From: Alphaproteobacteria bacterium
GTDB lineage: Bacteria > Pseudomonadota > Alphaproteobacteria > Rhodospirillales > Magnetovibrionaceae
Assembly (NCBI GenBank): GCA_015231605.1
Contig: JADGBG010000014.1
Coordinates: 1 to 39,953 of the forward strand
Direction of reading: 5' to 3'
DNA: 39,953 bases
Under the pieces are notes generated by a model. The model worked only from the letters and a program-made list of their open reading frames with translations, had not been told where the DNA came from and did not search any database. Made by a program: the position numbers and the translations under genes. This document shows positions 34,853-39,953 of the stretch, in pieces (within the stretch, counting starts at the first letter, position 1; every line of letters starts with the position of its first letter).

Positions 34853-35212
34853 ATGAACATTTGGATCGTGTTGGGCGGGCTGAACGCCGGGCTGGCCGTC
34901 GGGCTTGGCGCCTACGGCTGGCACAAGGTGCAAGACGACGTCTTCATGATGGGGACGCAGTATCACATGTGGCACGCGTTGGGGATGATCGCGGTGGGTT
35001 TGCTGGCCAGCCGTGCCGCGAACCGGCTGTTGGATGCGGCCGGGGCGTTGTTCCTGGTGGGGATCTATCTGTTCTGCGGCAGCCTGTACGCCTTTGGCGG
35101 CATCACGGTGGTGCCGGCCGACGGTCTCGCCCCGTGGGGGGGAACGGCGATGATGGGCGGATGGGCGTTGCTGGCATTGGCTGGCGGACGCGTGGCCCGG
35201 CGCGGGGGGTGA
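34853..35212 (+). CDS. DUF423 small membrane protein
   Basis: A 119-residue inner-membrane protein with four hydrophobic segments. Family features are LGGLNAGLAVGLGAYGWHKV at the N-terminus, GTQYHMWHALGMIAVG, and FCGSLYAFGGITVVPADG followed by PWGG, the conserved C-terminal half of DUF423. Function is unknown. AAAGGCG precedes the ATG at rather long spacing. It is divergent from the GGEEF gene across 52 bp. Confidence 0.88.
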   Translation: MNIWIVLGGLNAGLAVGLGAYGWHKVQDDVFMMGTQYHMWHALGMIAVGLLASRAANRLLDAAGALFLVGIYLFCGSLYAFGGITVVPADGLAPWGGTAMMGGWALLALAGGRVARRGG

Positions 35213-35263
35213 GTTCCGGCGAATCCGCTTTTGCGTCCGGTCCCGGCGCGCTATCCTATTGAT

Positions 35264-36298
35264 ATGACGACCGACGACGAGCGCTACGGCGACACACGCG
35301 CATGGTTGCGGCTGCGCGTGCGCACGGCCGACGTGTTGTTCGCGGGCGAGCGCGGCGAGCCCATCACCCACCGGGTGGACTTGGCACTGATCGTGTTGAT
35401 CTCGCTCAACGTGATCGCGGTGGTGCTGCAATCCGTGCAAACCATTTACGCCGCCGCGCCGGGGCTGTTCCACGGCTTCGAGGTGTTCTCGGTGATCGTG
35501 TTCACCGGGGAGTACTTGGCGCGGACGTGGTCGTCGGTGGACAACCCGTGGAAATCCGGCCGCGACCGCCCGGTCTTGGCGCGTATACGCTATATGCTGA
35601 CCAAGATGGCGATCATCGATCTGATCGCCATCGCTCCGTTCTATCTGGGCATGTTCATGTCGGCGGATCTGCGCATCTTGCGGGCGCTGCGGTTGCTCCG
35701 AATCTTCAAGCTGACGCGCTATTCCAGCGCCATGACCCTGTTGCTCCAGGTGGTGCGCGAAGAGGCCAGAACCATCGGCGCGGCGCTGTTCGTCGCCATG
35801 CTGTTGGTGTTCGTGGCTTCGACGTTGGCGTTCATCGTCGAGCACGAGGCCCAGCCCAAGGTCTTTTCCTCCATCCCCATGGCCATGTATTGGGCGGTCG
35901 TCACCATGACCACCGTGGGCTATGGCGACATGGTTCCGGTGACGGCGGCGGGCAAGGTGCTGGGCGGCATCATCGGCATCATCGGGCTGGGCATGGTGGC
36001 GCTGCCGGCGGGCATCCTGGCTTCGGGCTTCAACAACGCGCTGCACCGCCGCCGCGCCATGCTGCACGAAAAGATCGTCGACGCCATGCGGGACGGTCGG
36101 ATCACGGCCGAGGAGCAGGTCAACCTGGACGCCCTGGTGCGCCGTCTCAACCTCAACGACGTCGATGCGCGCGCGGTGATATTCGCCGTGCGCCACCAGA
36201 TGGCCGCCGGGGAGAAGGATGTCTGCCCCCATTGCGGCAAGCCCATCCATGACGCCTACGCCGACGACGACATCGACAACCCGGAATCCGGCGGATAG
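35264..36298 (+). CDS. Voltage-gated-type potassium channel with C-terminal zinc-knuckle-like tail
   Basis: A 344-residue six-helix channel. S1 is at about 38-60. S4 carries regularly spaced Arg/Lys (LRILRALRLLRIFKLTRY, about 136-153). S5, the pore helix and selectivity filter TVGYGD (217-222) follow, then S6 with GLGMVALPAGILASGF. The cytoplasmic tail has a helical segment (GRITAEEQVNLDALVRRLNL) and ends near CPHCGKP (C321, C324), half of a zinc-ribbon motif. This is a modest-length Kv-like bacterial channel. The start is the ATG at 35264; there is no ribosome binding site, and a TTG 11 codons earlier is possible. It is about 50 bp downstream of DUF423 on the same strand. Confidence 0.92.
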   Translation: MTTDDERYGDTRAWLRLRVRTADVLFAGERGEPITHRVDLALIVLISLNVIAVVLQSVQTIYAAAPGLFHGFEVFSVIVFTGEYLARTWSSVDNPWKSGRDRPVLARIRYMLTKMAIIDLIAIAPFYLGMFMSADLRILRALRLLRIFKLTRYSSAMTLLLQVVREEARTIGAALFVAMLLVFVASTLAFIVEHEAQPKVFSSIPMAMYWAVVTMTTVGYGDMVPVTAAGKVLGGIIGIIGLGMVALPAGILASGFNNALHRRRAMLHEKIVDAMRDGRITAEEQVNLDALVRRLNLNDVDARAVIFAVRHQMAAGEKDVCPHCGKPIHDAYADDDIDNPESGG

Positions 36299-36316
36299 TC
36301 GCGAATCGTTGATTTT

Positions 36317-36342
36317 CCTATACCCATAGTCGGCTATATAGG
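36317..36342. promoter_or_regulatory. Palindromic operator candidate upstream of the MarR gene
   Basis: Inverted repeat CCTATA (36317-36322) / TATAGG (36337-36342), with inner arms ATAG and CTAT around TCGG (36326-36337), in an AT-rich promoter-like patch (TTGATT at 36309, TACACT at 36344). MarR proteins commonly bind such palindromes over their own promoter. Confidence 0.4.
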
Positions 36343-36393
36343 ATACACTGCGCCGCCGTGGCAGAACCGCCACGAAATACGGGGGAATACGTC

Positions 36394-36834
36394 ATGTCCA
36401 CGGACCGTGAAAAAACGCCGGCCAACGTCGTCAACCACTTGGCGCGCGTCATGACCCAGGCGCTCAACGACCAGCTCAAGGCCCACGGCGTCGCGCCGGG
36501 GCAGATGCCGGTGCTCATGTGCCTGTGGGAACAGGACGGCCTGACCCAGCGCGAACTTTACGAACGGGTGAAGATCGAACAGGCGACCATGTCCAACACG
36601 CTGAAGCGCATGGAACGCGACTGCCTGATCTATCGCGAGCCCGATCCCAACGACCGCCGCTCCATGCGCATCCATCTGACCGGAATGGCGCGGCAGCTCG
36701 AAGACGACATCACCGCCAAGGCCAAGCAGGTCAACAAGGCGGCCTTCGACGGCATCAAGAAGAAAGAGCGCAAGCAGGTCCTGGACCTGTTGGGGCGGAT
36801 GATCGAAAATCTGGAAACTCTGCGTCAGGACTAA
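36394..36834 (+). CDS. MarR-family transcriptional regulator
   Basis: A 146-residue winged-helix dimer. N-terminal dimer helix NVVNHLARVMTQALNDQLKA; HTH QDGLTQRELYERVKIEQATM with recognition helix ATMSNTLKRMERDCLI; the wing contains DPNDRRSMRIHLT, the conserved DxRxxxxxLT motif; the C-terminal helices complete the dimer. The start Met has GGGGGA 7 nt upstream. The ligand and targets are unknown. The only promoter-proximal palindrome in reach is its own (36317-36342), suggesting autoregulation. Its stop abuts the stop of the convergent flavoprotein gene with no space between. Confidence 0.94.
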   Translation: MSTDREKTPANVVNHLARVMTQALNDQLKAHGVAPGQMPVLMCLWEQDGLTQRELYERVKIEQATMSNTLKRMERDCLIYREPDPNDRRSMRIHLTGMARQLEDDITAKAKQVNKAAFDGIKKKERKQVLDLLGRMIENLETLRQD

Positions 36835-38007
36835 TTACAGCGCCTCGCCGCAGGCGTGTCCCGACGCCCACGCCCACTGAAAATTGAACCCACCCAGGTG
36901 GCCGGTGACGTCCACGGTCTCGCCGATGAAATACAGGCCTGGGACCGTTCGCGCTTCCATGGTCTTGGACGACAGCTCCCGCGTATCCACCCCGCCCACC
37001 GTCACCTCGGCGGTGCGCATCCCTTCCGAACCGTTGGGCAGGACGCGCCAGGCGTTGACGCTGTCGGCCAGACGGCGCAGCGCCTTGTCGGGGGTTTCCC
37101 CCAAACGGCCGACGCTGGGGACCGCGTCAGCCCAGCGGTGCGCCAAGCGGGTCGGCAGCCATTGGGCCAGCACGGTGCGGGTTTCCTTCCTGGGCGTGTC
37201 GGCCTTGGCTTGTTTCAGGCGGGCGAACACGTCGACGCCGGGCAGCAGGTCCAGGGTGATGGCGTCGCCTTTGCGCCAATAGGAGGAAATCTGCAAGATC
37301 ACGGGGCCGCTCAGCCCGCGATGGGTGAACAGCAGGGCCTCGGCGAAGCGGACCTTGCCGAGCGTCGCCGAGGCCGCCAGAGAGATGCCGCTGAGGCCGT
37401 CCAGCAGGGCCATGGTTTCAGCTTCGAAGGTGAGCGGCACCAGCCCCGCGCGGGGCTCGACAACCTTAAGCCCGAACTGTTTCGCCACCGCGTAGCCGAA
37501 GCCGCTGGCCCCCATCTTGGGGATCGACGGCCCGCCGGTGGCGATCACCACGGATGGGGCCTCGAACCGGCCGCGGCTGGTGTCCACCGCGAAGCCCGCC
37601 CCCGTCCGCTCGACGAGGGAGACATCGACGCCGGTGCGGATGTCGCTGCCGGCGGCTTCGGCCAGCAGCATGTCGATCACCTGTTGGGCGGAGCCGTCGC
37701 AAAACAACTGACCATGATCGCGTTCGTGGTACGCGATGCCGTATGCTTCCACCAGCGCGATGAAATCCCCGGGAGTGTAGCGTTTCAACGCCGACACGCA
37801 AAAGCGCGGGTTGTCCGACAGATAGTCGGCCGGAGACACCGCGCGATTGGTGAAGTTCGAACGCCCGCCGCCGGAAATGCGGATCTTTTGCCCGACTTCG
37901 CCGTTGTGGTCGAGGACCAGGACGCGCCGTCCGCGCCGGACGGCGACGCCCGCGCACATGAGCCCGGCCGCCCCCGCGCCGATGATGATCGCGTCATAAG
38001 TGGACAT
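36835..38007 (-). CDS. HI0933-family flavoprotein (YhiN-like FAD-dependent oxidoreductase)
   Basis: 390 residues. The N-terminal FAD-binding loop IIIGAGAAGLMCA (about 7-19) is followed by the family hallmark GQKIRISGGGRSNFTN (about 39-54). A middle domain is inserted, and the C-terminal FAD-closing block has GLYFIGETVDVTGHLGGFNF followed by QWAWASGHACG. The reaction of this family is not firmly established. The Met at 38007 is chosen because it leads directly into the Rossmann strand; the frame runs to a TTG at 38025. The C-terminus abuts marR convergently with no terminator between. Confidence 0.93.
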   Translation of the reverse strand: MSTYDAIIIGAGAAGLMCAGVAVRRGRRVLVLDHNGEVGQKIRISGGGRSNFTNRAVSPADYLSDNPRFCVSALKRYTPGDFIALVEAYGIAYHERDHGQLFCDGSAQQVIDMLLAEAAGSDIRTGVDVSLVERTGAGFAVDTSRGRFEAPSVVIATGGPSIPKMGASGFGYAVAKQFGLKVVEPRAGLVPLTFEAETMALLDGLSGISLAASATLGKVRFAEALLFTHRGLSGPVILQISSYWRKGDAITLDLLPGVDVFARLKQAKADTPRKETRTVLAQWLPTRLAHRWADAVPSVGRLGETPDKALRRLADSVNAWRVLPNGSEGMRTAEVTVGGVDTRELSSKTMEARTVPGLYFIGETVDVTGHLGGFNFQWAWASGHACGEAL

Positions 38008-38084
38008 GGGCGAGGTATAAACCAACCCAGCTCCGCCGCCAAGGACGGCGGAGCCGGGCCAGATTCAACCTAAGCCTTTCCCGT

Positions 38085-38192
38085 TCAATCTGACGCATAT
38101 CCGGCAACCTTGAAGAAGGTGCAGCATTCCGTTGGTTCGAACAGGTCGCATATTTCGCCGAGGGCCTCCATGAAGTGTTCGTCAACTCTACC
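38085..38192 (-). pseudogene. C-terminal remnant of an IS630-family transposase
   Basis: The minus strand is open for 35 codons ending in TGA. The sequence (EHFMEALGEICDLFEPTECC, then TFFKVAGYASD) reads like the extreme C-terminus of IS630-type transposases, which end in FTPxECxNYFxxAGY. A stop codon lies directly upstream (38193-38195) and no further transposase sequence follows, so only this tail survives. It sits between the flavoprotein gene and the tRNA terminator, on the old-chromosome side of the junction. Confidence 0.65.
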
Positions 38193-38296
38193 CTAAGCTC
38201 CCCAAGAAGACATAAGCTCTTTCCCAAATTCCACTTTAAACCTAGATGCCTGTGGGCTGTGACGGTCGACATAACCTCGGCATGCCCCCAAACAGA

Positions 38297-38331
38297 CAAA
38301 ACCCCCGAAACACGAAGTTCCAGGGGTTTTG
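38297..38331 (-). terminator. Terminator of the disrupted tRNA gene
   Basis: A 9-bp stem (38297-38305 with 38323-38331, arm CAAAACCCC) with a 17-nt loop. On the minus strand it starts 7 nt after the CCA end of the tRNA fragment and ends in TTTTG followed by TCTGTTTG. It shows which side is original chromosome. The stretch 38193-38296 holds nothing that I can identify. Confidence 0.75.
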
Positions 38332-38338
38332 AGAATAA

Positions 38339-38378
38339 TGGTGCCCAGGGGCGGATTTGAACCACCGACACGCGGATT
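38339..38378 (-). other. Truncated tRNA 3' end (probably tRNA-Phe): putative attachment site
   Basis: The minus strand carries the 3' strand of the anticodon stem (AATCCGCG), variable loop, a complete T arm (GGTGG, TTCAAAT, CCGCC), the acceptor 3' strand CCTGGGC, discriminator A and CCA. The first half of the tRNA is missing: sequence to the right of 38378 is unrelated. Acceptor and T-arm sequence fit alphaproteobacterial tRNA-Phe. Integrases that recombine in the 3' half of a tRNA gene leave exactly such a displaced fragment at the far end of the element. Confidence 0.7.
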
Positions 38379-38526
38379 CACATCTTTCTGGCGGCCCCTT
38401 AGAGCATCTTTGAGATCATCCTGTTCTGAAGAAGCATTTGCCCCCTTGTCAGCGCCACGGAATTGGAAATAGCGTGTTCCGTCCTTTTACGAGTGCATGT
38501 CCAAATGCGGCTCATGGGAGACCTAT

Positions 38527-39153
38527 ATGGACCAATCCTCAAATGCCCCTCAGTCGACGTTAGGAAAGGTTTTGCGTTGGCTGGGGTTGGCCGTGCTCTG
38601 CTTCACTTTCGTTCGATACGGTTACGGCTTTTTCACGACACTCTCAGACGCTTCCGTTGGCGCCTATGCCCCCTTGATTCTAGTGGAGGGAGCTGTTTGG
38701 GCTGCGGTCGGTGCTGTTCTCGTCTGGCTTGGATCTCGTATGGGGCGGACCACGTCAGGAGACGGTGATGTTGCGGACATTGACAAAACATCCAGAACGC
38801 TTGCTTTGATTTTTTGGTGCCAAGCCCTGTTAGGGCTTATTCCCGCGGCTCTGCTGGCGGCATTCCTGGGTGGCGTTTCCGTGGATGCGCCAAGCACCCC
38901 GGAGTATGTGTTTTATGTTACCGCAGCCGCCACCTTCGCGGCGGTTGCCGCCCTTTCATCCGCCTTGCCGTGGTGGATAGGAAAAATGGTGATGCTTGGG
39001 CGGCCCTGGGGGCTTCGCGGAGCCGCCATATACGCCGCCATCACTCTCCCCGCGTTTCCCTATGGGACCATCCTGGGTGGGGTGGAACTCGCCCTTGTTT
39101 ATCAGATCCACACAAAGCGAAAAAAATCTCAAGACAACCCAGCCTCATCATAA
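38527..39153 (+). CDS. Integral membrane protein of unknown function (element cargo)
   Basis: A 208-residue protein with about five membrane segments (near 15-36, 47-70, 91-114, 127-148 and 165-187), a soluble loop between segments 2 and 3 (TSGDGDVADIDKTSR), and a basic C-terminal tail (HTKRKKS). I recognise no family. The start is the Met at 38527 with GGGAGA upstream; a Met ten codons earlier has poorer signals. Composition is AT-richer than the chromosomal genes to the left. The 148 bp between the tRNA fragment and this gene holds nothing that I can identify. It is convergent with the HTH gene across a strong terminator. Confidence 0.7.
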   Translation: MDQSSNAPQSTLGKVLRWLGLAVLCFTFVRYGYGFFTTLSDASVGAYAPLILVEGAVWAAVGAVLVWLGSRMGRTTSGDGDVADIDKTSRTLALIFWCQALLGLIPAALLAAFLGGVSVDAPSTPEYVFYVTAAATFAAVAALSSALPWWIGKMVMLGRPWGLRGAAIYAAITLPAFPYGTILGGVELALVYQIHTKRKKSQDNPASS

Positions 39154-39262
39154 CGGCCATCGCCACCCGCGTAAGGGTCGGCATAAACGGCCACCCTCCC
39201 CAAAAGCGAATGTAGCGCTCCTCATGAATTTAGAGGAAGAATCGCTAGAACTTGGAGCAGAA

Positions 39263-39296
39263 AAAAGGGCCTCAAATGACGTTTTGAGGCCCTTTT
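39263..39296. terminator. Bidirectional Rho-independent terminator
   Basis: A 14-bp perfect stem (39263-39276 with 39283-39296, arm AAAAGGGCCTCAAA) with a 6-nt loop. It has As before and Ts after, between two convergent genes. Confidence 0.88.
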
Positions 39297-39306
39297 AAGT
39301 ACCCTG

Positions 39307-39918
39307 TTAAAGGGCTTCTGAACGTCTTTTTAGGAGCATTCGCTGGATTGTCCTCACCGAGGGGCATTTCTGGTCATTATTAGCTGTCCACTCCGCCACC
39401 TGTTTGTGCAAATCGGCCACATTAATATTAGGCAGACCTTCGATGGTATCGTTAATAAATTGAGTCAGCCCAGGTGCATCCGTCAAACACGTCTTAGTAC
39501 GCCCCTTCCAAGATGGAAATAGACCGTCGATACCCTGTTCCTTGAAGGCTTTTTTCCAATTCCATATAGTCATGCCCGTGAACTTGGGGATGGCTTCATA
39601 AACCCACTCTGAAAGCCCAGGAATGGCCCTGTTTGGGAACGACTCGACAGCCCATTCAACGGCCTTGCGAACCCCAATATCGTGATCATGGCGGTAGCGA
39701 TCAATGGCCTCCAAAATGGCTACGCGCGCATCGGCAATTTGTTGTTGCCTTTCATGGATTTTGGCACGGGATGCTTCTTTATGGGCCGCATAGGCCTGTA
39801 CGCTGTTATCACCGCGTTTAGCCTCATTCGCCTCAATTAGGGCCTGTACGGCCTTCGCGTAGCGCTCACGGGCGGATTCAAGGGCCTGTCTGGCTTGTTC
39901 CACTTCATCTGTCAGCAT
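39307..39918 (-). CDS. Coiled-coil plus helix-turn-helix protein, transposase-like DNA-binding region
   Basis: 203 residues. The N-terminal charged coiled coil (about 1-75) is followed by a helical region with VRKAVEWAVESFPNRAIPGL. Next is an HTH-like segment, KFTGMTIWNWKKAFKEQGID then GLFPSWKGRTK, of the kind that precedes the catalytic domain in Mu- and IS-type DDE transposases. The last helices (LHKQVAEWTANNDQKCPSVR, then TIQRMLLKRR) resemble a second HTH. There is no DDE catalytic domain: the protein stops and a terminator follows, so it is either a regulator or a stand-alone recombination accessory factor. The start ATG has a strong GGGAGA upstream. I recognise no named family. Confidence 0.7.
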   Translation of the reverse strand: MLTDEVEQARQALESARERYAKAVQALIEANEAKRGDNSVQAYAAHKEASRAKIHERQQQIADARVAILEAIDRYRHDHDIGVRKAVEWAVESFPNRAIPGLSEWVYEAIPKFTGMTIWNWKKAFKEQGIDGLFPSWKGRTKTCLTDAPGLTQFINDTIEGLPNINVADLHKQVAEWTANNDQKCPSVRTIQRMLLKRRSEAL

Positions 39919-39953
39919 GGCTAATCTCCCTATTTTTATTCATCTGCCGAGTT

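Follow-up and report, generated by a model that had tools for sequence, protein, structure and literature searches.

Islander (PMC4383910), in the part of its description drawn on here, treats a tRNA gene with an island as a gene that was split by integration and restored by the island, so that the regenerated gene and a displaced fragment of it mark the two ends; tandem islands are foreseen in the same account. Hot spots of repeated integration into a few tRNA genes are described for Sinorhizobium meliloti (PMC11476347), with direct repeats that are identical to the tRNA 3' end, e.g. 49 bp at tRNA-Lys. The locus presented here resembles both systems, in that an intact tRNA gene and its cognate displaced 3' fragment with CCA occur in the same genome and the direct repeat is again a tRNA 3' end. 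It differs from them in that Islander, as described there, asks for the two copies to stand in one orientation on a single replicon, enclosing a tyrosine integrase (PF00589, not Xer), whereas here the copies lie on separate contigs and neither contig has a PF00589 match, and in that the hot spots named in that account of S. meliloti are tRNA-Thr, tRNA-Asn and tRNA-Lys, whereas the gene concerned here is tRNA-Phe.

The window, i.e. the whole stretch of DNA that was analysed (39,953 nucleotides), is the entire contig C60 of an Alphaproteobacteria bacterium of the Magnetovibrionaceae (assembly GCA_015231605.1). The contig ends 1575 bases past the tRNA fragment, and its features around the fragment are the following.

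36835-38025, minus strand: HI0933-like flavoprotein gene (PF03486, E 6.2e-85), on the presumed chromosomal side of the junction
38297-38331, minus strand: terminator-like hairpin behind the fragment (folding and terminator scan)
38329-38378, minus strand: 50-base perfect direct repeat, candidate attachment core (comparison with the C70 copy)
38339-38378, minus strand: displaced fragment, the 3' half of tRNA-Phe(GAA), positions 37-76 including CCA (40/40 identity to the intact gene)
38379-39953, no strand: presumed island side, AT-richer and reaching the contig end (from composition; no other copy in the genome)
38497-39153, plus strand: ORF A, 218 aa (no Pfam family over cut-off; rare in the order)
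39263-39296, minus strand: hairpin behind ORF B (-21.4 kcal/mol, z -5.5)
39307-39918, minus strand: ORF B, 203 aa, like the N-terminal part of a Mu-type transposase only (phrog_310 match)

The fragment at 38339-38378 agrees in 40/40 bases with positions 37-76 of the tRNA-Phe(GAA) gene at G000:C70:875-950, and the identity of the two copies extends 10 bases beyond the CCA, giving 50/50 bases over 38329-38378. The 5' half and the anticodon are absent, and ARAGORN called no tRNA anywhere in the window. When positions 38280-38400 were searched against all 213 contigs of the genome, the fragment itself and the C70 locus were the only two matches; the C70 match includes the hairpin and covers 92 bases at 87% identity with an E-value of 7.6e-23 in this whole-genome search, which excludes a chance resemblance. 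The hairpin at 38297-38331 (-23.4 kcal/mol, z -6.7) was equalled by none of 200 shuffles and is one of six sites listed by the terminator scan, where shuffles give 2.8. The hairpins that follow the C60 and C70 copies are alike but diverged, and the C60 hairpin also resembles those behind tRNA-Phe and behind a tRNA-Phe piece in the family relative G002. No conserved protein domain and no full tRNA gene overlaps the fragment, the Pfam-matched ORF ending at 38025 and ORF A starting at 38497. Searches against Rfam gave sub-threshold matches only, and a His_leader match over the fragment (E 0.71) was taken as chance. The first-pass annotation had described, within 38297-38526, 40 nucleotides of a tRNA-Phe 3' half with CCA, lacking the 5' half and followed by a terminator, and these results bear it out.

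The same annotation had stated that AT-richer DNA replaces the missing 5' half, in agreement with a GC fraction of 0.46-0.59 in intervals from 38400 on compared with 0.61-0.70 in intervals starting at 35000-37800; GC is low as well (0.545 at 38000-38399) in the non-coding DNA that adjoins the fragment on its left. Both ORFs that follow the fragment look foreign. ORF A reaches the cut-off of no Pfam family, has no match among plasmids and is present in 9/313 other genomes of the order. ORF B matches positions 62-245 of the 696 positions of phrog_310 (Mu-type transposase; E 4.6e-12), has no match among phages or viral contigs and is present in 2/119 other genomes; standing alone, it is possibly a regulator or a truncated relic. 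Neither ORF was found in the 17 other family genomes, whose completeness ranges from 59 to 100% and is low for some. The HI0933-like protein is 60-74% identical in six family relatives whose loci were fetched. A search of 38380-39953 against the rest of the genome for shared contig ends matched only its own inverted hairpin. In a distant DNA search among plasmids the stretch 38280-39953 matched 17 records, none covering 80% of the query, and the five matches listed cover the tRNA 3' end only.

The only intact tRNA-Phe gene of the genome sits on contig C70 at 875-950. The first gene of this contig, cut by the contig edge, belongs to the RNase E/G family (PF10150, E 3.1e-23); YacG (PF03884, E 6e-14) and tRNA-Phe come next. 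yacG was also seen upstream of tRNA-Phe in 13/14 of the other fetched family loci that have an intact gene, all but G007, where tRNA-Phe lies at a contig end, and the RNase E/G-yacG-tRNA-Phe block is common to the family. An intact copy with a direct repeat had been predicted to the right of the fragment; the copy and the repeat were found, 50/50 bases long, although on a separate contig, C60 ending 1575 bases past the fragment. The orientation of the two copies within their contigs permits one island between them. If the right end of C60 and C70 bound one island, its size would be at least about 36.9 kb.

Mobile DNA follows the intact gene. Beyond the tRNA, C70 resembles Mu-like transposable prophages: a first gene (repressor) ~470 bases downstream of tRNA-Phe is followed by a Mu-type transposase (phrog_310, E 6.8e-166), an adjacent AAA protein, tail sheath and DNA-circularisation proteins. 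The left end of this prophage is placed approximately, not to the base; the prophage fills C70 to the contig end, where it stops among tail genes, and its right end is not on C70. The ends of Mu-like prophages carry a short target duplication, not a tRNA repeat, and Mu-like phages are not known to use tRNA genes as attachment sites; the prophage on C70 therefore leaves the 50-base repeat unaccounted for. Contig C171 (L139:8530-14461) has another Mu-type transposase gene (PF00665, PF09299), a few kb from a short PF00589 remnant, so that the genome appears to contain a further Mu-like element close to the remains of a recombinase gene.

Truncated tRNA-Phe 3' pieces occur in 8/17 family genomes (G002, G003, G005, G006, G008, G011, G014 and G015). 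The pieces in G002 are ~25 and ~16 nt long, G005 has three rungs after its intact tRNA-Phe, and G013 has an additional 26-nt piece from the anticodon arm; no intact tRNA-Phe was seen in G008 and G011. Whenever a piece was found on the contig of the intact gene, the two lie on the same strand, in 7/7 cases (G002, G005, G006 and G015 in the family; G020, G033 and G092 in the order), or 8/8 with G013, while truncated 3' ends on contigs that lack an intact gene are found in G003, G008, G011 and G014. The breakpoint is at tRNA position 37 in the window and at 27-32 in most longer pieces of relatives.

Complete intervals on single contigs were found in relatives. In G020, tRNA-Phe is followed by type I restriction genes, a P4-type integrase (PF00589, E 4.4e-20) and the fragment, and in G092 by a PF00589 protein (E 5.3e-23), a 472-aa protein and the fragment. 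In the one-contig genome G033, tRNA-Phe is followed by a 390-aa ORF (no Pfam match at E 1e-5) and by Rep3 and TraG-type genes, the fragment being ~26.4 kb away. The 472-aa protein of G092 (L201:7099-8514) is 50% identical to a 490-aa protein of G003 (L044:4498-5967) that is encoded ~145 bases from a displaced tRNA-Phe fragment. Pfam and NCBIfam gave no match for either protein; the G003 protein does have a weak match that coincides with a PF00589 match elsewhere in that genome (C21:31.0-31.5 kb), and we infer that the two may be divergent tyrosine recombinases. Small and alike contents lie between tRNA-Phe and the fragment in G006 (L038:5113-7061) and G015 (L039:6654-8680), namely a Sel1-like protein (weak match) and a peptidoglycan-binding/phage Mu F-like protein (the latter contents tested in G006 only), and no recombinase was seen in this interval. 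Gene order was read with a codon-based gene caller that misses AT-rich island genes, so that these gene lists are rough.

The comparison with island-free relatives that the first-pass annotation had suggested gave no empty site, since none was found with the same left flank beside tRNA-Phe. In the fragmented assemblies of the family the HI0933-like gene and tRNA-Phe are on different contigs wherever both were matched, and the neighbours of the HI0933-like gene vary. Among the fetched loci of other relatives none matched the C70 and C60 arms, and for the sequence behind the C60 fragment the G002 terminators were the only match. Conserved recombinase arms were considered and dropped: by eye, G005, G008 (one of three), G011 and G014 resemble one another upstream of the fragment, and the window differs from them there.

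A tyrosine integrase had been expected beside the intact tRNA; on C60 and C70, the assembled parts of the presumed interval, the profile search gave no PF00589 match, and it is the Mu-like prophage that adjoins the tRNA instead. The rest of the genome has eight PF00589 matches on seven other contigs, one of them XerC-like. PF00589 was likewise absent from six fragment-bearing family contigs (G002:C117, G003:C57, G005:C11, G006:C1, G008:C85 and G011:C89), some of which are short, with G013, G014 and G015 outside that search. Contig C13, with tail-fibre-like repeats, a DUF5131 gene and two PF00589 integrases, was considered as a bridge and dropped because its 59-base repeat is another tRNA-like 3' half, common with C47, and C13 has no tRNA-Phe match. 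On C47 (L140:6677-11644) this tRNA-like 3' half forms 55-nt repeats, 93% identical and separated by 4913 bases, and a PF00589 integrase lies ~160 bases from one of them, another canonical case; the third copy, on C13 (L142:3179-3237), lies beside a 336-aa integrase. ARAGORN called no tRNA in these C47 and C13 repeat stretches.

Relatives of the organism also carry a cassette of ~0.9 kb, consisting of a 143-aa gene (gene X) and an RRM gene, behind tRNA-Phe, tRNA-Met or tRNA-Ser 3' ends.

L170:3689-4658 (G004): X-RRM cassette; also at L198, L200, L203, L176, L036, L037, L169, L177, L199, L202 and L205

Gene X was found in 20/317 genomes of the order and in 1/385 genomes sampled from the class; in the genome of the window it was not found. 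Among the 20 loci from the order, five have an intact tRNA immediately before X (Phe: G015, G017; Met: G061, G159; Ser: G004), nine have a tRNA end that is truncated or degenerate (G005, G008, G011, G013, G014, G078, G092, G136 and G158), and six have no clear tRNA end before it (G007, G053, G069, G081, G102 and G160). The X of G092 carries a stop. In the class genome G600, reading by eye likewise places X behind a tRNA-Phe sequence. In 11/13 aligned loci, all but G015 and G092, X is followed by another coding-like stretch, and the one copy tested encodes an RRM protein (PF00076, E 3.9e-17). In G004 the pair lies within 69-nt repeats that hold the tRNA-Ser 3' end, 96% identical and 901 bases apart, a spacing that leaves no room for an integrase. 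When a second tRNA end was sought within 900 bases behind X in 15 loci and compared with 100 shuffles, G004, G061 and G078 were clearly above all shuffles and G136 narrowly so, and the other 11 were not. The cassette looks mobile, and in three genomes tRNA 3'-end repeats clearly bound it.

Gene X has no Pfam match and no match in phages or plasmids. Its structural model (mean pLDDT 89.4) shows a beta-alpha-beta-beta-alpha-beta order plus long helices, and Foldseek matched it to no PDB chain or viral model at E 0.001; further structure comparison gave middling Z scores, 7.4 at most, and the sequence gave weak matches only to solved structures. A literature search found no paper on the cassette by title or abstract start, which does not show it to be unpublished. 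Gene X was also considered as a fixed chromosomal neighbour of tRNA-Phe, and so as a left-flank anchor, and was dropped, being found at tRNA-Met and tRNA-Ser as well and not in this genome.

We consider it likely that the repeat at 38329-38378 is the distal attachment junction left by one integrated element, or by several stacked ones, in the 3' half of tRNA-Phe, and that C60 and C70 bound one island or stack. In this account a tyrosine recombinase would have acted on the only tRNA-Phe gene, with strand exchange close to the anticodon loop, and the element would have supplied its own tRNA 3' half, restoring the gene now on C70; the host's original 3' half and hairpin would have been displaced to the opposite end of the insert, which is now on C60. 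The island may have been enlarged or remodelled by other DNA, including the Mu-like prophage. A breakpoint at position 37 (27-32 in most longer pieces of relatives) fits an exchange at the anticodon stem-loop, a location inferred from position. A single island is favoured by the 50-base perfect repeat, the single intact gene, which has the family's RNase E/G-yacG block before it and mobile DNA after it, right-hand ORFs that turned up in none of the 17 family relatives next to a left-hand gene that turned up in six, and by the one-contig parallels in G020, G092 and G033 together with the 3' pieces in 8/17 family genomes. It is weakened by the Mu-like prophage beside the intact tRNA, as a transposable prophage needs no tRNA site, by the lack of continuous sequence between the copies and of PF00589 on C60, C70 or the six family fragment contigs, and by the HI0933-like gene, which in the fragmented family assemblies where both were matched is on a different contig from tRNA-Phe and has differing neighbours. 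Site-specific tRNA integration, as read by the first-pass annotation, thus gains from the second copy, the mobile DNA downstream of it, the ORFs not found elsewhere in the family and the parallels in relatives, while the contiguous join is missing.

The unjoined state of C60 and C70 and the divergence of the hairpins behind both copies would also suit a remnant of an older, decayed or moved element with a tRNA-Phe 3' end, unrelated to the DNA after the C70 gene, and 3' ends do occur on contigs without an intact gene in G003, G008, G011 and G014, with like pieces in plasmids. However, 50 bases without any divergence are unexpected of an old orphan, and the foreign-looking ORFs stand on the side that the island model predicts, so that we regard such a remnant as rather unlikely. 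It is more doubtful still that the fragment is one rung of a family-wide tRNA-Phe stack, built largely by integrase-less elements moved in trans, of which the X-RRM cassette (~0.9 kb) would be the smallest. If the segment had simply been duplicated and had then lost its 5' half, without any mobile element, this would account for the hairpin having been copied together with the tRNA end; yet the truncation lies near the anticodon, as in most longer pieces of relatives (27-32), composition and gene content shift at the fragment, and islands lie between such copies in relatives, all of which makes a duplication very improbable. Hardly credible is an assembly artefact in which the tRNA repeat fused two unrelated contigs: the genome is indeed in 213 contigs, but its completeness is given as 99.21% and its contamination as 0.73%, the fragment is 1.6 kb away from the contig end, and its flanks on either side are unlike those of the C70 locus.

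The fragment is thus probably the ordinary end of a tDNA island, an integration scar of a well-known kind. As such it would mark the meeting point of acquired DNA and chromosome, and it predicts which contig ends share an island. The X-RRM cassette offers a handy test case for elements that are moved by the integrase of another element. Within the family and the order, integration seems to have recurred at tRNA-Phe where it follows the RNase E/G gene and yacG.
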